From: Motilibacter rhizosphaerae
Lineage (GTDB): Bacteria > Actinomycetota > Actinomycetes > Motilibacterales > Motilibacteraceae
DNA length: 64,000 nucleotides
NCBI RefSeq assembly: GCF_004216915.1
Contig: NZ_SGXD01000004.1
Location: 310,001-374,000 of the forward strand
Reading direction: 5' to 3'
Shown: positions 3,309 to 17,406 of the stretch, in pieces
Numbering within the stretch: the stretch's first letter is position 1
Layout: every line of letters starts with the position of its first letter
Translations under genes and position numbers: made by a program
Notes under the pieces: generated by a model
What the model was told of the DNA's origin: nothing
Databases searched by the model: none
What the model saw: the letters and a program-made list of their open reading frames with translations, nothing else

Positions 3309-4808
3309 GTGCGCACGCTCAAGGGACCCTCGGACTCCGTCGTCGTCGTCGGCGCCGGGCTCGGCGGCCTGTCCGCCGCGCTGCGCCTCGCCGGCGCCGG
3401 GCGCCGCGTCACCGTCATCGAGCGGGAGGCCGAGCCCGGCGGCCGGGCGGGCGTCCTGCGCGACGCGGGCTGGTCGTTCGACACCGGCCCGACGGTGCTC
3501 ACCATGCCCGAGCTCATCGCCGACGCGCTCGCCTGCGTGGACGAGGAGCTCGAGGACTGGCTCGACCTCGAGCCGGTGCGCCCGCTCTACCGCGCGCGCT
3601 ACGCCGACGGCTCCGTCCTCGACGTGCACGCCGACACCGAGCAGATGGCCGAGGAGATCACGCGCGTCTGCGGCGCGGGCGAGGCAGCGGGCTACCGGCG
3701 CTACGTCGAGTTCGTCTCCGAGCTCTACCGCCTGCAGATCCGGCACTTCATCGACCGCAACATCGACTCGCCGCTCTCGCTGGTCTCCCCCAGCCTGGCC
3801 CGGCTCGTCGCCATCGGCGGCTTCCGCAAGCTCACCCCGAAGGTCGGGCAGTACCTCCAGGACCCCCGCACCCAGCGGGTCTTCTCCTTCCAGTCGATGT
3901 ACGCCGGGCTCGCCCCGCAGGACGCGCTCGCGATCTACGCCGTCATCGCCTACATGGACTCCGTGGCGGGGGTCTACTTCCCGCGCGGCGGCATGCACGC
4001 CGTACCCCGCGCGCTGGCGGGTGCCGCCGAGAAGGCGGGCGTCGAGTTCCGCTACGGCACCACGGTCTCCCGGGTCGAGACCCGCGGGAAGCGGGCGGTC
4101 GCCGTCATCACCGCGGACGGGGAGCGCATCCCCTGCGACGCGCTCGTCCTCAACCCCGACCTGCCCGTCGCCCACCGCGACCTGCTGGGGTCGGTGCCGC
4201 GCCGGGTGGAGCGCCTCTCCTACTCACCGTCCTGCGCGCTGCTGCTCGCGGGGAGCACCGCGACGTACCCCGACCTGGTGCACCACAACATCTTCTTCGG
4301 CGATGCCTGGGAGGGCGTCTTCGACGAGATCATCGACCAGGGCAGGCTGATGAGCGACCCGTCGTTCCTCGTGACCCGCCCGACGGCGAGCGACCCCTCA
4401 CTCGCGCCGGCGGGCAAGGAGTCGTACTACGCGCTGTTCCCGACGCCCAACCTGCGCGCGGGGATCGACTGGCGCGGCGAGGGTCCGCGCTACCGCGACG
4501 CCATGGTCGCCTCGATGGAGTCCCGCGGTCTCAGCGGCTTCGGTGACTCCATCGAGGTCGAGCACCTCACCACCCCGCTCGACTGGGAGGAGCGCGGCAT
4601 GGAGGCCGGGGCGCCCTTCGCCGCCGCCCACACGTTCCTCCAGACCGGTCCGTTCCGGCCGCGCAACACCTGGGGCGACAACGTCGCGTTCGCCGGCAGC
4701 GGGACCCAGCCGGGCGTCGGCGTGCCGATGGTGCTGCTCAGCGGGCGGCTGGCGGCCGAGCGGATCACGGGGCCCGACAGGGCGTACCGGTCGCGGGCGT
4801 GGCGGTGA
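3309..4808 (+). CDS. crtI: Phytoene desaturase (lycopene-forming type)
   Basis: FAD-dependent amine-oxidase-fold enzyme of about 499 residues that introduces double bonds into phytoene. An N-terminal Rossmann motif GAGLGG at residues 15-20 is followed by a conserved Glu (VTVIEREAEPGGRAG), DTGPTVLTMPE, and the family C-terminal FAD motif GSGTQPGVGVPMVLLSG close to the end. The GTG start is one base after the crtE stop and its own stop overlaps crtB, so the three genes are translationally coupled. No lycopene cyclase or later carotenoid gene is in the window, so the end product here is inferred only as far as lycopene. Confidence 0.93.
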   Translation: MRTLKGPSDSVVVVGAGLGGLSAALRLAGAGRRVTVIEREAEPGGRAGVLRDAGWSFDTGPTVLTMPELIADALACVDEELEDWLDLEPVRPLYRARYADGSVLDVHADTEQMAEEITRVCGAGEAAGYRRYVEFVSELYRLQIRHFIDRNIDSPLSLVSPSLARLVAIGGFRKLTPKVGQYLQDPRTQRVFSFQSMYAGLAPQDALAIYAVIAYMDSVAGVYFPRGGMHAVPRALAGAAEKAGVEFRYGTTVSRVETRGKRAVAVITADGERIPCDALVLNPDLPVAHRDLLGSVPRRVERLSYSPSCALLLAGSTATYPDLVHHNIFFGDAWEGVFDEIIDQGRLMSDPSFLVTRPTASDPSLAPAGKESYYALFPTPNLRAGIDWRGEGPRYRDAMVASMESRGLSGFGDSIEVEHLTTPLDWEERGMEAGAPFAAAHTFLQTGPFRPRNTWGDNVAFAGSGTQPGVGVPMVLLSGRLAAERITGPDRAYRSRAWR

Positions 4809-5755
4809 GCCGGCTGCAGCTGCAGGGCGGCGCGCGCGACCTCGACGCCGCCGGCATCACCGACCCCGCGCTGCGCGAGTCCTACGAGGTCTGCCGACGG
4901 CTCAACGCCGAGCACGGCAAGACCTACTACCTCGCGACGCTGCTGCTGCCCTCGCACAAGCGGCCCTACGTGCACGCGCTCTACGGCTTCGCCCGCTACG
5001 CCGACGAGTTCGTCGACTCGCTCACGGACCCGCACCCCGACGCGCTGCTCCCCTGGGCCCAGCGCTTCCTCGCCGACCTCGAGGCAGGCTCCTCGACGGA
5101 CCCCGTGGGGAGCGCCATGGTCGACACCGTGCGCCGCTGGGACATCCCGGTCGAGCACGTGGTCGCGTTCCTCGACTCGATGGCGATGGACCTCACGGTG
5201 ACGTCGTACGCGACGTACGACGACCTCCGCGGCTACATGCACGGCTCGGCGGCGGTCATCGGGCTGGAGATGCTGCCGATCCTCGAGCCGCTCGACGACG
5301 CCGCCGCTCCCGCCGCGGCTGCTCTGGGCGAGGCGTTCCAGCTGAGCAACTTCCTCCGCGACGTCGCCGAGGACCTGCAGCGCGGCCGGGTCTACCTGCC
5401 GCAGGAGGACCTCGACCGCTTCGGCGTCACGCGCGCCGACCTGGCCGTCGCCCCGGCCCTCCCCCACGTGCGCGAGCTCATCGCCTTCGAGGTACGCCGC
5501 TGCCGGGAGATCTACGCCGTCGCCGAGAGCGGCATCGACCACCTGCACCCCACGAGCCGGGACTGCATCAGGACCGCGCTCGTGCTCTACGGCGGCATCC
5601 TCGACGAGATCGAGCGGGTGGACCACGACGTGCTCTCCGCCCGCGTCTCGGTGCCCCTGCCCAAGCGGCTCCGCGTCGCGGTCCCCGGGCTCGTGCGGGC
5701 GGCGGCGGCGCGGCGCGAGGCGCGGTCGTGGCGCCCGCTCCCCGGCGCCGCCTGA
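4799..5755 (+). CDS. crtB: Phytoene synthase
   Basis: Squalene/phytoene synthase family, about 318 residues; it joins two geranylgeranyl diphosphates head to head. Both Asp-rich sites are present: DEFVD near residue 70 and DVAED near 188, the latter inside the signature LRDVAEDLQRGRVYLPQEDL. Two starts are possible: GTG 4799, or GTG 4805, which overlaps the crtI stop as GTGA. Either way translation is coupled to crtI. Last gene of the crtE-crtI-crtB operon. Confidence 0.93.
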   Translation: MAVSRLQLQGGARDLDAAGITDPALRESYEVCRRLNAEHGKTYYLATLLLPSHKRPYVHALYGFARYADEFVDSLTDPHPDALLPWAQRFLADLEAGSSTDPVGSAMVDTVRRWDIPVEHVVAFLDSMAMDLTVTSYATYDDLRGYMHGSAAVIGLEMLPILEPLDDAAAPAAAALGEAFQLSNFLRDVAEDLQRGRVYLPQEDLDRFGVTRADLAVAPALPHVRELIAFEVRRCREIYAVAESGIDHLHPTSRDCIRTALVLYGGILDEIERVDHDVLSARVSVPLPKRLRVAVPGLVRAAAARREARSWRPLPGAA

Positions 5756-10770: not shown

Positions 10771-10819
10771 GTGATCATGCACGTCCTGGGCCGGCGCGCC
10801 CCAGGATGTGCATGATCAC
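10771..10819. repeat. Long palindromic repeat, family A, copy 1
   Basis: Two 20-base arms, left GTGATCATGCACGTCCTGGG at 10771-10790 and right at 10800-10819, are complementary except for one G-U pair, with a nine-base loop. A near-identical perfect copy is at 15990-16030. It lies 35 bases after the nfo stop and could act as a terminator, but there is no T-run. Confidence 0.85.
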
Positions 10820-11060: not shown

Positions 11061-12083
11061 ATGGTCGTGGTCATGGCCCCCGAGGCCACCGAGGAGCACG
11101 TCGCCGCCGTCGTCGAGCGCGTCGAGGCGGCGGGCGGCGAGGCCTTCGTCAGCCGCGGCGTCTCGCGCACCATCGTCGGGCTCATCGGCGACGTCACGGC
11201 GTTCGGCGACCTCGAGCTCCAGGCGCTGCCCGGCGTCAGCGACGTCGTGCGGGTCAGCACGCCGTACAAGCTGGTGAGCCGCGAGCACCACCCCGAGAAG
11301 AGCACGGTCGTCGTCGGCGGCGTGCCGATCGGCCCCGGCACGTTCACCCTCGTCGCCGGTCCGTGCGCGGTCGAGTCGCCCGAGCAGACCCTCGCCGCTG
11401 CGCAGATGGCCAAGGCCGCGGGCGCGACGCTGCTGCGCGGCGGCGCGTACAAGCCGCGGACCTCGCCGTACGCGTTCCAGGGCCTCGGCCAGCGCGGCCT
11501 CGAGATCCTCGCCGACGTGCGCGCGGAGACCGGCCTGCCCGTCGTGACGGAGGTCGTGGACGCGCACGACGTCGAGCTCGTCGCGTCGTACGCCGACATG
11601 CTGCAGATCGGCACCCGCAACGCCGGCAACTTCGGCCTGCTCCAGGCCGTGGGGGCGGCCGGCAAGCCGGTGCTGCTCAAGCGCGGGATGAGCGCCACCA
11701 TCGAGGAGTGGCTCATGGCCGCGGAGTACATCGCCCAGCGCGGCAACCTCGACATCGTGCTCTGCGAGCGGGGCATCCGGACGTTCGAGACCGCGACGCG
11801 GAACACCCTCGACATCGCTGCCGTGCCCGTCGCGCAGGGGCTGAGCCACCTGCCGGTCATGGTCGACCCCTCGCACTCGGGCGGACGGCGCGACCTGGTG
11901 ATCCCGCTGTCGCGCGCGGCGATCGCCGTCGGCGCGGACGGCATCCTCGTCGACGTGCACCCGCACCCGGAGACCGCGCTCTGCGACGGGCCGCAGGCGC
12001 TCGTCGAGTCCGACCTGCGCGCCCTGGCGGCGGTGTGCCGGCAGCTACCGCCCCTGCTGGGCCGCGCGCCGGTCGCGGGCTAG
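11061..12083 (+). CDS. aroF: 3-deoxy-7-phosphoheptulonate synthase, class I-beta
   Basis: About 340 residues. It joins phosphoenolpyruvate and erythrose 4-phosphate in the first step of the shikimate pathway. A ferredoxin-like N-terminal domain (about residues 1-70, VVVMAPEATEEHVAAVVERVEA) is fused to a KDO8P-synthase-like barrel with VAGPCAVES, RGGAYKPRTSPYAFQG, QIGTRNAGNF, LLKRGMSATIEEW and VDPSHSGGRRD. That is the Thermotoga/Bacillus type, unrelated to the class II enzyme at 16066-17406. The N-terminal domain mediates feedback inhibition in relatives. ATG start with a GAGAGGA ribosome-binding site. Probably controlled by the upstream leader peptide and hairpin. Confidence 0.93.
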   Translation: MVVVMAPEATEEHVAAVVERVEAAGGEAFVSRGVSRTIVGLIGDVTAFGDLELQALPGVSDVVRVSTPYKLVSREHHPEKSTVVVGGVPIGPGTFTLVAGPCAVESPEQTLAAAQMAKAAGATLLRGGAYKPRTSPYAFQGLGQRGLEILADVRAETGLPVVTEVVDAHDVELVASYADMLQIGTRNAGNFGLLQAVGAAGKPVLLKRGMSATIEEWLMAAEYIAQRGNLDIVLCERGIRTFETATRNTLDIAAVPVAQGLSHLPVMVDPSHSGGRRDLVIPLSRAAIAVGADGILVDVHPHPETALCDGPQALVESDLRALAAVCRQLPPLLGRAPVAG

Positions 12084-12105: not shown

Positions 12106-13590
12106 CTAGGCGGCGGTCGCGGGCTGGGCGCGCTCCACGCGGGCGCGCCCGGCCCGCTTCGCGGCGTACAGCGCCTGGTCGGCGCGGTCGACCAGCGCCT
12201 CGGGCAGCTCGCGCCCGTCCCACTCCGCGGCGCCGGCGGAGAACGTGCGACCCTCCGGCGTGACGCGCGTGAGCCGGCCGAGGAGGACGACCGCCTGCTC
12301 GGCGCTCCTCCCGGGCAGCACGACGAGGAACTCCTCCCCGCCGTAGCGCGCGAGCGTCGCCGACCGCGGCAGCTGCTCGCGCCAGGCGGCGGCGCAGCCC
12401 ACGAGCAGCCGGTCGCCCGCCTGGTGGCCGCGGCTGTCGTTGAACTGCTTGAAGTGGTCCAGGTCGACCATCGCGACGGCCAGCGGTGCGCCGGCCGCGC
12501 GGCACGCGTGCAGGGCGCGGTCCAGCTCGGCGTCGCCGCTGCGCCGGTTGGGCAGCCCGGTGAGAGCGTCCGTGCGCGACAGCCGCTCGAGCCGCACGGC
12601 CTGGTCCTGCAGGCGGCGGAGCAGCCCGGCCATGCGGGCGACGACGAGGAGGAAGAGCACCGCCGAGCTCGCCGCCACCGCCCACCCGTCGAGCGACCGG
12701 CCCAGCGCGAGCTCGACCGCGAGCGTCACCGGGGAGAGCAGGCTGGCGGCGGTGAGCGCCAGCAGCCGGCGCCGCGGGAGGGGCTCGGCCGGCGGGGGCT
12801 GGGGGTCGGTGAGCGCGGCCGCGTCGGGGTGCAGCGCGGCAGCTCCCAGCAGGAGGTACGCCGCGAGGAACGGCAGGCTGGCGGCGAGCGCGAGGACGTC
12901 GCCCCCGCTGTCCCCGAGCTGCGCGAACCAGACGTCGCTCAGCAGCGTCGCGACGAGCCCGCCGAGGAGCATGCGCAGCGACGTGCTCCGCCGGCCGCCT
13001 CCCGCCCAGAGCCGGGCCGCCGTGGCGAGCAGCAGCACGTCCCCGACGGGGTACGCGAGGGAGACCACCGTCCCGAGGCCGGGGTCGGCGTCGGCGAGGG
13101 CGGGCCGCACGACACCGACCCACACGAGCAGGCCGAGCCCGACGGTGAGGACGGCGCTGTCGAGGTGCGCCTCGCGCCCGTGCAGCCCGCCGCGGCGACG
13201 GGCGAGGACCACGAGCGCGGCTGCCAGCAGGGGGTACTGCGCGAGGTAGGCCACGTCCGCCACCGACGGGAACGGCGAGCGGTGGAGCACCGTCAGCAGC
13301 AGCGTCCAGGTCGCGTCCCCCACGGCGGTGGCGAGCATCCCCAGGGCGAGCAGCAGCCAGGTGGAGCGGGCGCGTCGCGGCGAGCGGGCCGCTCGCCACC
13401 CGAGCGCGACGACGGCCGTGGCGTCGACGGTGAGGTACGCGAGCTGGCCGACCAGCGGGCCCCACGCAAGCTGGGCGAGGACGTGGGCGACCACGAGGAG
13501 CACCCCGACGCCGAGGTACGCCCGGTGCGCTCGGTTCGCCTGGTGCACCGGGAGCGCCTGGTGCGCCCCGCTGCCGCCTCTCCCCCTCAC
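12106..13590 (-). CDS. Membrane-bound diguanylate cyclase (GGDEF)
   Basis: About 494 residues: eight to ten hydrophobic segments fill the first 310 residues, then a short coiled linker (RLQDQAVRLERLSRTDALTGLPNRR) and a GGDEF domain with an active GGEEF at residues 417-421, so it should make cyclic di-GMP. The inhibitory RxxD I-site expected just before the active site reads RSAT, so product inhibition at that site is probably absent. The GTG start has a GGGGAGG close upstream. It diverges from the SpoIIE/B12 operon across a 106-base spacer. The membrane part is a candidate sensor but is not a family I can name. Confidence 0.87.
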   Translation of the reverse strand: MRGRGGSGAHQALPVHQANRAHRAYLGVGVLLVVAHVLAQLAWGPLVGQLAYLTVDATAVVALGWRAARSPRRARSTWLLLALGMLATAVGDATWTLLLTVLHRSPFPSVADVAYLAQYPLLAAALVVLARRRGGLHGREAHLDSAVLTVGLGLLVWVGVVRPALADADPGLGTVVSLAYPVGDVLLLATAARLWAGGGRRSTSLRMLLGGLVATLLSDVWFAQLGDSGGDVLALAASLPFLAAYLLLGAAALHPDAAALTDPQPPPAEPLPRRRLLALTAASLLSPVTLAVELALGRSLDGWAVAASSAVLFLLVVARMAGLLRRLQDQAVRLERLSRTDALTGLPNRRSGDAELDRALHACRAAGAPLAVAMVDLDHFKQFNDSRGHQAGDRLLVGCAAAWREQLPRSATLARYGGEEFLVVLPGRSAEQAVVLLGRLTRVTPEGRTFSAGAAEWDGRELPEALVDRADQALYAAKRAGRARVERAQPATAA

Positions 13591-13659: not shown

Positions 13660-13688
13660 TCGACAAAGCGGGCGCGGCTGCCTAGCGT
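13660..13688 (+). promoter_or_regulatory. Strong housekeeping-type promoter of the SpoIIE/B12 operon
   Basis: TCGACA at 13660-13665, a 17-base spacer and TAGCGT at 13683-13688, with the ATG at 13697. The transcript should start at or next to the ATG. This is the clearest -35/-10 pair among the leaderless genes in the window. Confidence 0.6.
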
Positions 13689-13696
13689 GGGGGGCG

Positions 13697-14998
13697 ATGG
13701 CTGATTCGCCAAGGCAACAGTCCCTCCCGGTCACCCTCCCGGGAGCGGCGACGTCACCCGGCGAGGGGCTCCCCGGGCTGCCCTCCGAGCTGCGGACCGA
13801 CGTCGAGGCCGCCCTCACCGAGGCGCTGCTCGCCGAGCGCGAGCGCTCGTCGTTCCTCTCGGAGGCCAGCAGGGCGCTCGCGGGCTCGCTCAACCTCTCG
13901 CGCACGATCGCCCGCACCCTGCACCTGCTCGTCCCGCGCTTCACCGACGACGCGCGCGTCGTGCTCGTCACCGGGCGCTCGGCCCGCGTGTCGCTGCTGC
14001 GGGCCGACGGGGAGTCCCACGGCCTGGACCCGGTGGTCCTGCCGAGCATCCCCAGCGACGTCGAGCACGTGCTGCGCAGCGGCCGGCACCTGCGCGCGGG
14101 CACCGCGCTGCACCTGCCGCTGGTCGCGCGCGGCACGGCGTTCGGGACCGTCACGCTGCGCACTGCACCCGAGGACGAGGGCGCGCTCGCCGTGCTCGAG
14201 GAGCTCGTCGGCCGGGCGGCTCTCGCGCTGGACGCGGCGCGCCTCTACGGCGAGCGGAGCTCCGTCGCCAGCGTGCTCCAGGCGAGCCTGCGCCCACCGC
14301 GGCTCCCCGCTGTGCCCGGTGTGCGCCTGGCGGCCCGCTACCGCGCCGCGCTCGAGCACAGCGAGCTCGGCGGCGACTTCTACGACGTGCACGGCGCGGG
14401 CGACGACTGGACCGTCGTCGTCGGCGACGTCTGCGGCAAGGGCGTCGAAGCCGCGGTGCTCACCGGCCAGTCCCGCCAGTCCGTCCGCACGGCGGGGCTC
14501 GTCGACCGCGACCCCGCCCGCGTGCTCGCGCTGCTCAACGACGTGCTCGTCGGCTCCGAGATCGACCCCGGCAAGTTCGTCACCGCGGTGGCCGCGCGGC
14601 TGCGCCCCCTGGCCGCCGGGGGGCTGCGCGTCGACCTCGCCAGCGCCGGCCACCCGTTCCCGCTCCACCTCGGCCCCGGCGGCGTGCGCGCCGTGCCGGT
14701 GACCGGCATCGTCGCGGGGGCGTTCCCGGGGGCGGCGTACGACCGGCAGACGCTCGTCCTCGCGCCCGGCGAGACCCTGCTCCTGCTGACCGACGGCGTG
14801 CTCGAGGCCCGTGGGCGCGACGGCGACTTCGGCGAGGAGCGGCTCCAGCGACTGCTCGACCAGCTCGCCCGCCGCCCCGGTGGCCGCCACCCCGACGCCG
14901 TCGTCGACACCGTGCTCGAGGGCGTGCTCACCCACCTCGACGGCCGCCCGCACGACGACATCGCGCTGCTCGCCCTGCAGGCCGGCGACGGCGCGTGA
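13697..14998 (+). CDS. GAF-SpoIIE (PP2C-type) Ser/Thr phosphatase
   Basis: About 433 residues. A GAF-like domain (roughly 60-185) is followed by a SpoIIE/RsbU phosphatase domain (about 200-430) that keeps the metal-binding motifs LGGDFYDV, VVGDVCGKGVEAA, LLTDGVLEAR and PHDDIALLAL. Enzymes of this family dephosphorylate STAS-domain anti-sigma antagonists and so release alternative sigma factors. No STAS or anti-sigma gene is adjacent. The next gene, a B12-binding protein, overlaps its stop (GTGA), which makes it the likely signal-receiving partner. Confidence 0.9.
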   Translation: MADSPRQQSLPVTLPGAATSPGEGLPGLPSELRTDVEAALTEALLAERERSSFLSEASRALAGSLNLSRTIARTLHLLVPRFTDDARVVLVTGRSARVSLLRADGESHGLDPVVLPSIPSDVEHVLRSGRHLRAGTALHLPLVARGTAFGTVTLRTAPEDEGALAVLEELVGRAALALDAARLYGERSSVASVLQASLRPPRLPAVPGVRLAARYRAALEHSELGGDFYDVHGAGDDWTVVVGDVCGKGVEAAVLTGQSRQSVRTAGLVDRDPARVLALLNDVLVGSEIDPGKFVTAVAARLRPLAAGGLRVDLASAGHPFPLHLGPGGVRAVPVTGIVAGAFPGAAYDRQTLVLAPGETLLLLTDGVLEARGRDGDFGEERLQRLLDQLARRPGGRHPDAVVDTVLEGVLTHLDGRPHDDIALLALQAGDGA

Positions 14999-15993
14999 CG
15001 GGCGAGGCCGAGCGCTACCTCGACCTGCTCGGCCGTCCCGACCGCGCGGCCGCCGTGCGCCTCGCGCTCGACCTCGTCGAGCAGGGCGTCCCGGCGGCCG
15101 AGGTGCTGACCGGGCTCGTCTGCCGAGGCCAGGAGCAGGTCGGTCGGCTCTGGCAGGCCGCGAGCTGGGACGTCGCCCGCGAGCACGCGGCGACCGCGGT
15201 CAGCGACGCGGTCGTCAGCGCCGTCGGACTGGCGGCGCCGCCGCGGACGCGCACGGCGGGCAGGGTCATCGTCTGCTGCGTCGAGGCCGAGTGGCACGCG
15301 CTGCCGGCGCGGATCGTCGCCGAGGTGCTCGAGCTCGCCGGCTGGGACGTCACCTTCCTCGGCGCCTCCGTGCCGCCGGCGCACCTCGCGCAGTACCTCC
15401 ACGACACCGGGCCCGACGCCGTGGCGCTGAGCTGCTCGCTCGCCTCCGCCCTGCCGCGTGCCCGCCGCATGGTCGAGGCGTGCCGCGAGGCGGGGGTGCC
15501 CGTCCTCGTCGGGGGCCGTGGGTTCGGGCCGGACGACCTGCGCGCCCGGCGGATCGGCGCCAACGCCTGGGCGGCGGACGCCGCGGGCGCCGTCGCCGTG
15601 CTGCAGGGCTGGGCGCCGTTCGCGAGCCCACCGCCGCCGGTCGCGTCGGCCTGGCTCGACGAGCACGCCCGGCTGGCCGAGGCGCGTCCGGCGGTGCTGG
15701 AGGGGGCGCTCACCGCTCTCGCGGGGGCGCCGTGGACCAGCGCGTACGGCGCGGAGCAGTGGGAGCGGACCCGCGAGGACCTGGGCCACCTGGTCGACTT
15801 CCTCGCCGCGACCCTCTACGTCGACGACGAGCGCATCCTCGCGGACTACCTCGCCTGGTGCCGGGAGGTGCTCACGGCCCGCGGAGTGCCGTACGCCGCG
15901 CTGCTCGCCGGGCTCCGGGCGGTGCGCGACGCCCTGCCCGTCGGGCTGGACCACGCCGCGGCCCTGCTCACCGCGGCCATCCCTCTGGCGTGA
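14995..15993 (+). CDS. Stand-alone B12-binding protein with CarH-type light-sensing signature
   Basis: About 332 residues. An N-terminal helical bundle contains W53-x9-E63-H64, the W-x9-EH signature that in CarH/LitR photoreceptors caps the adenosyl group of coenzyme B12. A Rossmann-type B12 domain follows with E99-x-H101-x-x-P104, whose His would be the lower cobalt ligand, and LSCS and VGGRGFG strands. There is no MerR DNA-binding domain. The His that follows the Trp in Thermus CarH is Gln54 here. The C-terminal 100 residues are helical and unrecognised. Translationally coupled to the SpoIIE phosphatase. Light or B12 sensing is inferred. Confidence 0.8.
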   Translation: MTGEAERYLDLLGRPDRAAAVRLALDLVEQGVPAAEVLTGLVCRGQEQVGRLWQAASWDVAREHAATAVSDAVVSAVGLAAPPRTRTAGRVIVCCVEAEWHALPARIVAEVLELAGWDVTFLGASVPPAHLAQYLHDTGPDAVALSCSLASALPRARRMVEACREAGVPVLVGGRGFGPDDLRARRIGANAWAADAAGAVAVLQGWAPFASPPPPVASAWLDEHARLAEARPAVLEGALTALAGAPWTSAYGAEQWERTREDLGHLVDFLAATLYVDDERILADYLAWCREVLTARGVPYAALLAGLRAVRDALPVGLDHAAALLTAAIPLA

Positions 15994-16030
15994 TCATGCA
16001 CGTCCTGGGGCCCAGGACGTGCATGATCAC
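15990..16030. repeat. Long palindromic repeat, family A, copy 2
   Basis: Perfect 20-base arms (15990-16009 and 16011-16030) around one central base. It overlaps the stop codon of the B12 protein and sits between two convergent genes, where it could end transcription from both sides. Confidence 0.88.
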
Positions 16031-16065: not shown

Positions 16066-17406
16066 TCAGTGCTGCGCGAGCATCTCCGCGACGAGGAACG
16101 CCAGCTCGAGCGACTGCTGGTGGTTGAGCCGCGGGTCGCACGCGGTCTCGTAGCGCAGCACGAGGTCGGGCTCGGCCAGGCCGCTGGCGCCACCGATGCA
16201 CTCGGTGACGTCGTCGCCGGTGAGCTCCACGTGCACGCCGCCGGGGACGGTCCCCAGGCCGCGGTGGACCTCGAAGAACCCGCGCACCTCGTCGACGACG
16301 TCGTCGAAGCGCCGCGTCTTCACCCCGGCGGCCTCGATCGTGTTGCCGTGCATGGGGTCGCAGACCCACAGCACCTGCGCGCCGCTCGCGGTGACCTTCT
16401 CGACCAGCGGCGGCAGCGCCTCGCGGATCCGGCCGGCACCCATGCGCGTGATGAAGGTGAGCCGCCCGGGCTCCCGGTCGGGGTCGAGCCGGTCGATGAG
16501 GGCCAGCGCGTCGTCGGCCGAGGTCGTCGGGCCGAGCTTCACCCCGATGGGGTTGCGGACGCGCGCGGCGAGGTCGACGTGCGCGCCGTCGAGCTGCCGG
16601 GTGCGCTCACCGACCCAGACGAAGTGCGCCGAGGTGTCGTAGGGCAGCCCGGTGCGGGAGTCGATGCGGGTGAGCGCGCGCTCGTACTCGATGAGCAGGG
16701 CCTCGTGCGAGGTCCAGAAGTCGACCCGGCGCAGCGACTCGGAGTCCGCGCCCACCGCCTGGAGGAACTCGATCGCGCGGTCGATCTCGCCGGCGAGCTG
16801 CTCGTAGCGCGCAGTCGCCCCGCCGTCGCGCAGGAAGCCCTGGTTCCAGGCGTGCACCTGGCGCAGGTCGGCGAACCCGCCCTGGGTGAAGGCGCGGACG
16901 AGGTTCAGCGTCGCGGCGGAGGTGTTGTAGACCTGCAGCAGGCGTCGGGGGTCCGGGACGCGCGAGTCCTCCGTGAACTCCAGCCCGTTGACCGCGTCGC
17001 CGCGGTAGGCCGGGAGCACCACGCCGTCGCGGGACTCGTTGCCCGAGGAGCGCGGCTTCGCGAACTGCCCCGCGATGCGCCCGACCTTGACCACCGGCAC
17101 GCTCGCGCCGTAGGTCAGCACGACCGCCATCTGCAGCATCGTCTTGAGCTTGGCCCGGATGGCGTCGGCGGTCGCGCCCGCGAAGGTCTCCGCGCAGTCC
17201 CCGCCCTGCAGCCAGAACGCCTCACCGCGCGCCGCCGCGGCCGCCTGCGCCTTGAGCGCGTCGCACTCCGCGGCGAACACGAGCGGGGGCAGCGTGCGCA
17301 GCTCGCGCTCCACGGCGCCCAGCGCCGCACGGTCCGGCCACTCCGGCTGCTGGGCCGCGGGGAGCTCGGGCAGGTCCAGCGCCGGCTGGGGCGAGGGGGT
17401 GCTCAC
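16066..17406 (-). CDS. aroG: 3-deoxy-7-phosphoheptulonate synthase, class II
   Basis: About 446 residues, the size of plant-like and mycobacterial class II DAHP synthases. Signatures visible are FWLQGGDCAETF, KVGRIAGQFAKPRS, SHEALLIEYERALTR, HFVWVGERTRQLDGAHV, LGPTTSADDALALI and VWVCDPMHGNT, followed by a His-rich HVELTGDDVTEC. It catalyses the same reaction as the class I-beta enzyme 4 kb away but shares no recognisable sequence with it. The GTG start is eight bases after a TACGCT hexamer. In mycobacteria the class II gene sits near pknL, as here. Confidence 0.94.
   Translation of the reverse strand: MSTPSPQPALDLPELPAAQQPEWPDRAALGAVERELRTLPPLVFAAECDALKAQAAAAARGEAFWLQGGDCAETFAGATADAIRAKLKTMLQMAVVLTYGASVPVVKVGRIAGQFAKPRSSGNESRDGVVLPAYRGDAVNGLEFTEDSRVPDPRRLLQVYNTSAATLNLVRAFTQGGFADLRQVHAWNQGFLRDGGATARYEQLAGEIDRAIEFLQAVGADSESLRRVDFWTSHEALLIEYERALTRIDSRTGLPYDTSAHFVWVGERTRQLDGAHVDLAARVRNPIGVKLGPTTSADDALALIDRLDPDREPGRLTFITRMGAGRIREALPPLVEKVTASGAQVLWVCDPMHGNTIEAAGVKTRRFDDVVDEVRGFFEVHRGLGTVPGGVHVELTGDDVTECIGGASGLAEPDLVLRYETACDPRLNHQQSLELAFLVAEMLAQH

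Follow-up and report, generated by a model that had tools for sequence, protein, structure and literature searches.

A photocobilin gene overlapping a SpoIIE phosphatase gene in Motilibacter rhizosphaerae: a candidate light input to partner switching

A two-gene unit in a 64,000-nucleotide stretch of the Motilibacter rhizosphaerae genome (contig NZ_SGXD01000004.1, positions 310,001 to 374,000 of the forward strand; hereafter the window) encodes a GAF-SpoIIE phosphatase and a B12 protein that is almost certainly a photocobilin. Gene-order evidence added by the present work shows that the SpoIIE-photocobilin unit, in many cases extended by a STAS gene, has been kept as an operon across the class Actinomycetes. 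The reading favored here, with a probability of roughly 0.6, is that the photocobilin gates the co-encoded phosphatase as its light-responsive output enzyme and thereby feeds a partner switch; restraint in the dark and activation in the light are the tentatively proposed direction.

The gene pair and the domains of its products

The phosphatase gene extends from an ATG at 13697 to position 14998 on the forward strand (433 aa), and the photocobilin gene from a GTG at 14995 to 15993 on the same strand (332 aa). The two share a 4-bp GTGA stop/start overlap (14995-14998), a -4 spacing also present in relatives, which suggests translational coupling. Both reading frames and the overlap agree with a first-pass annotation made from the sequence, the start of which (13660) lies upstream of the phosphatase ATG. 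The GTG start is supported by the alignment of photocobilin residue 6 with residue 8 of the solved homologue. A GGDEF diguanylate cyclase gene with an N-terminal hydrophobic region (12106-13548, reverse strand; Pfam GGDEF E=2.2e-34) diverges from the phosphatase gene at a distance of ~150 bp, and the phosphatase, photocobilin, and cyclase genes may share a common control region; promoter and terminator scans gave no result.

Several other features of the surroundings were observed. The carotenoid genes reported nearby are indeed present as a CrtI-like (3309-4808) and a CrtB-like (4799-5755) open reading frame, recognized by eye from their translated N-termini, at ~3.3-5.8 kb. The region is flanked by two DAHP synthases that belong to separate Pfam classes (DAHP_synth_1 and class II DAHP_synth_2; 11061-12083 and 16066-17406). 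A near-perfect palindrome (TGATCATGCACGTCCTGG followed by its reverse complement) is present twice in the window (15991-16029 and 10772-10818; 0 expected by chance). The former copy lies between two convergent genes, where it overlaps the stop codon of the photocobilin gene, and the repeat may be a bidirectional terminator that lacks a T run.

The closest match of the B12 protein in a phmmer search of the PDB is the dark state of SasPcob (8J2W; E=8.1e-75, residues 6-314), followed by the SasPcob light state (8J2X) and then by AbDPcob (8J2Y; E=3e-56), and the match to CarH (E=1e-6) is confined to the B12 module. The top five Foldseek hits are all photocobilin structures, the best again being 8J2W (E=1.1e-20, 46% identity over 336 columns). 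An AlphaFold2 model of the protein (mean pLDDT 81.7) is helical from residue 219 to the end; its whole-chain TM-score of only 0.53 marks the relative domain placement in this model, built from a shallow alignment, as unreliable. Assignment to CarH/LitR was rejected, with no MerR domain in a Pfam scan and an NCBIfam CarH score of 38 bits against a cut-off of 400. The earlier description of a light-sensing type of B12 domain lacking a DNA-binding domain is upheld, while the label "stand-alone CarH-type" gives way to that of a photocobilin, with homology to 8J2W, 8J2X, and 8J2Y along almost the entire protein.

All domains of the photocobilin lie on the forward strand. A four-helix-bundle cap (residues 5-76, 15007-15222; Pfam B12-binding_2, E=9.6e-10) carries W53 and E63-H64, and a Rossmann cobalamin-binding domain (residues 89-197, 15259-15585; Pfam B12-binding, E=2.6e-20) carries the lower axial His101. 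The C-terminal 100 residues, previously left unassigned, are recognizable from the 8J2W alignment and the Foldseek ranking as a bilin-binding globin domain; this phycobilisome-like globin, predicted to bind bilin, spans approximately residues 219-332 (15649-15990) as delimited by the alignment to the 8J2W biliverdin domain and the modeled helices, and the Pfam Phycobilisome match to the same region is weak (E=0.019, below the cut-off).

Residue conservation was counted over 69 photocobilin relatives. The adenosyl-pocket signature is almost invariant (W53 in 68/69, E63 in 69/69, and H64 in 67/69), as are the lower axial H101 (67/69) and E99 of the same motif; these residues, together with Q54 and P104, are all present in the window protein as previously claimed. 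In SasPcob, biliverdin is held by Asp270 and Trp296 (PMC10979010), and the equivalents by alignment are D262 (52/69 relatives) and W288 (68/69). Position 54, directly after the Trp, is Gln in both the window protein and SasPcob and is His in 0/69 relatives, and the light state of SasPcob is a monomer with water/hydroxide-ligated Co(III) cobalamin rather than a bis-His adduct (PMC10979010). Gln54 thus fits the photocobilin norm and is no argument against light sensing; the suggestion that it might alter the photochemistry holds relative to CarH but not among photocobilins.

The window photocobilin probably binds biliverdin in addition to cobalamin. A search for PF01126-type haem oxygenases found none in the window genome, which does encode a CobO adenosyltransferase. 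Biliverdin is not required for light sensing, since a photocobilin loaded with adenosylcobalamin (AdoCbl) only responds to green light (PMC10979010). Across the class, PF01126 occurs in 33/62 photocobilin genomes (29/62 are without it) versus 125/332 of the remaining genomes (Fisher p=0.02, uncorrected for phylogeny). Haem oxygenase was rejected as a required companion given this weak co-occurrence, and the association was left out as support.

The partner was correctly recognized as a phosphatase of the partner-switch type. Its SpoIIE match covers residues 236-428 (E=1.8e-40), preceded by a weak N-terminal GAF_2 match, and the PPM catalytic residues D227, D244, D366, D420, and D421 are invariant in 51 aligned phosphatase relatives. 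SpoIIE was matched by 51/51 scanned photocobilin-paired phosphatases, many of which also contain GAF. When the SpoIIE proteins of the data set are ranked by similarity to the window phosphatase, those paired with a photocobilin in other genomes come first, and nearly all of them score above every paralogue encoded in the window genome, as expected if both genes were inherited together.

Conservation of the operon in actinomycetes

Photocobilin relatives (E<1e-25) were found in 62/394 genomes of the class. The locus set was assembled from the regions around these matches, the window, and 11 Lentzea loci, with genes called by a codon-usage model, and comprises 76 loci with a callable photocobilin gene, 65 of them non-Lentzea. 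In 66/76 actinomycete photocobilin loci the gene directly preceding the photocobilin gene, in the same orientation, encodes SpoIIE, and 41 of these 66 pairs have the exact 4-bp overlap, so the check proposed in the first-pass annotation, whether the pair is conserved across actinomycetes, returned a positive answer. The pair occurs in 10/14 sampled families and 18/23 genera (including locus L089, which has one intervening gene). With 18 SpoIIE genes in the 4.3 Mb of the window genome, chance adjacency is expected at well under 1% per locus. The photocobilin and the phosphatase are likely to be functionally paired.

The neighborhoods also contain other partner-switch components. Of the 65 non-Lentzea loci, 36 have a STAS gene no more than four genes away (directly downstream in 25), and 16 have an RsbW-like HATPase gene within the same distance. 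A scan of the four-gene neighborhood found neither a STAS nor an RsbW-like kinase gene beside the window pair; STAS proteins, RsbW-like ATPases (HATPase_c_2), and one SigB/F/G-type sigma factor are encoded in the window genome. No SpoIIE-photocobilin fusions were found, and the long open frames that were examined split into separate genes. At two loci (L092:5265-7482 and L094:5491-7708), a single SpoIIE gene precedes two photocobilin genes in tandem, and a STAS gene comes next.

The pair, put forward in the first-pass annotation as a candidate for an undescribed system, cannot be called one. Photocobilins were defined by Zhang et al. (2024; PMC10979010), who called the role of the stand-alone ones less clear and predicted STAS, SpoIIE, and PP2C-like phosphatases as potential interaction partners of SasPcob. 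The literature searched contained nothing experimental on a photocobilin-controlled SpoIIE beyond this 2024 prediction, and no report of a conserved operon with STAS.

Proposed light control of the phosphatase and alternative readings

In the proposed mechanism, the photocobilin would bind adenosylcobalamin, and probably biliverdin, and form a head-to-tail dimer in the dark. Light would cleave the Co-C bond, leading to loss of adenosine and to a monomeric state in which the helix bearing E63/H64 is rearranged, and the co-translated GAF-SpoIIE phosphatase would read this dimer-to-monomer change by direct contact. By analogy with the published photocobilin-regulated diguanylate cyclase (DGC), the phosphatase would be restrained in the dark and activated in the light, whereupon it would dephosphorylate a STAS anti-anti-sigma factor, which would then capture an RsbW-like kinase and release a stress-type sigma factor. 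Light control of phosphatase activity with a partner-switch output is considered reasonably likely. The direction of the effect, with light as the activating signal, is little better than a guess, because the effect of SasPcob in the published test had opposite signs with and without biliverdin (PMC10979010). The broader proposal, that photocobilins contact a separate SpoIIE protein to form a class-wide two-subunit, light-gated phosphatase conveying light into actinobacterial partner-switch sigma regulation, is given a slightly better than even chance.

A different output is suggested by the cyclase gene at 12106-13548. The photocobilin could sense light but signal mainly through cyclic-di-GMP via this divergent enzyme, or through both enzymes, with the SpoIIE overlap reflecting mere co-expression. 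Activation of a DGC by a photocobilin in the light has been shown both in cis and in trans (PMC10979010). The characterized fusion AbDPcob is itself a diguanylate cyclase, and in trans SasPcob stimulates a foreign DGC (PMC10979010). Photocobilin loci lacking SpoIIE often adjoin GGDEF or GGDEF-EAL genes (L047, L072, L073, and L076), and GGDEF genes recur upstream of photocobilin relatives outside the class. In a genome of the same genus, the sole photocobilin (L047:5057-6025) is divergent (37% identity), has Leu at the position of the biliverdin-contacting Asp, and adjoins a GGDEF-EAL gene rather than SpoIIE. However, the window is the only one of the SpoIIE-paired loci with a GGDEF gene within four genes, and SpoIIE pairing is nearly universal in the class, making a primarily cyclic-di-GMP output unlikely. 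Overall, the photocobilin resembles a light-sensing module that is coupled to either partner switching or cyclic-di-GMP metabolism, and the GGDEF gene diverging from the window pair makes a double output possible.

Other arrangements were observed as well. At L071 (1083-3118), a locus without SpoIIE, genes for an RsbW-like HATPase and a KaiC-like ATPase follow the photocobilin gene, and at L073 (233-5137) a gene for a 1634-aa CheB-CheR-PAS-GGDEF-EAL protein overlaps the photocobilin gene by 4 bp. The divergent relatives at L078, L081, and L082 lie behind a metallo-beta-lactamase-fold gene close to groES/groEL. His64 is lost in the latter two, L081 also lacking His101 and the biliverdin Asp, and both of these relatives may be light-blind.

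Two further readings question light itself as the signal. The pair might instead sense cobalamin status or redox, such that the phosphatase would respond to the AdoCbl-bound versus the empty or hydroxocobalamin-bound state, with light sensitivity as a mere by-product. AdoCbl binding alone lowers the activity of AbDPcob relative to the apo protein (PMC10979010), and the lack of PF01126 in the window genome and in the 29 photocobilin genomes noted above indicates that the bilin antenna may be dispensable; yet the near invariance of the light-responsive adenosyl pocket (W53, E63-H64) and of W288 on the bilin side renders this explanation improbable. Far less probable still is that the B12 protein serves as a corrinoid methyl carrier (MtaC/MtbC-like) and not as a sensor. 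NCBIfam does return corrinoid proteins, but only at 38 bits against cut-offs of 215-350, while the photocobilin match is full-length and includes the globin domain; given these weak scores and the absence of any recurrent methyltransferase neighbor at photocobilin loci, the methyl-carrier role was rejected.

The phosphatase gene conserved upstream and the STAS gene that frequently follows name a likely partner, and an assay, for stand-alone photocobilins. If the favored reading of a light-gated phosphatase is correct, many soil actinobacteria would feed visible light directly into the control of stress or developmental sigma factors, and a phosphatase gated by green and red light would be of use in optogenetics.

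Comparison with known systems

The closest known protein is SasPcob from Saccharothrix syringae (PDB 8J2W/8J2X), which has the same domain order and length as the window protein at ~49% identity and shares its W-x9-EH and ExH motifs, the biliverdin Asp and Trp, and the Gln after the Trp. The 20 nearest relatives of SasPcob in the locus set all have SpoIIE upstream (20/20; L089 with an intervening gene). Compared with SasPcob, the window pair has no adjacent STAS gene and its genome no PF01126 haem oxygenase. AbDPcob (PDB 8J2Y) has the same photocobilin fold, with light controlling an attached enzyme, but its output is a fused GGDEF domain and its biliverdin Asp is replaced by His, whereas the Asp is kept in the window protein. 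CarH/LitR proteins (TtCarH, PDB 5C8A/5C8D) have the B12-binding module and adenosyl-pocket signature in common with the window protein, which differs by its remote similarity (E=1e-6), the absence of a MerR domain, the extra globin domain, and Gln54 in place of His132, the residue of the bis-His light adduct in TtCarH. With the RsbU/SpoIIE PPM phosphatases, the window phosphatase shares the GAF-SpoIIE architecture and the catalytic Asp residues, and its relatives the proximity of STAS and RsbW-like genes; in contrast to these phosphatases, its input appears to be a separate photocobilin subunit.
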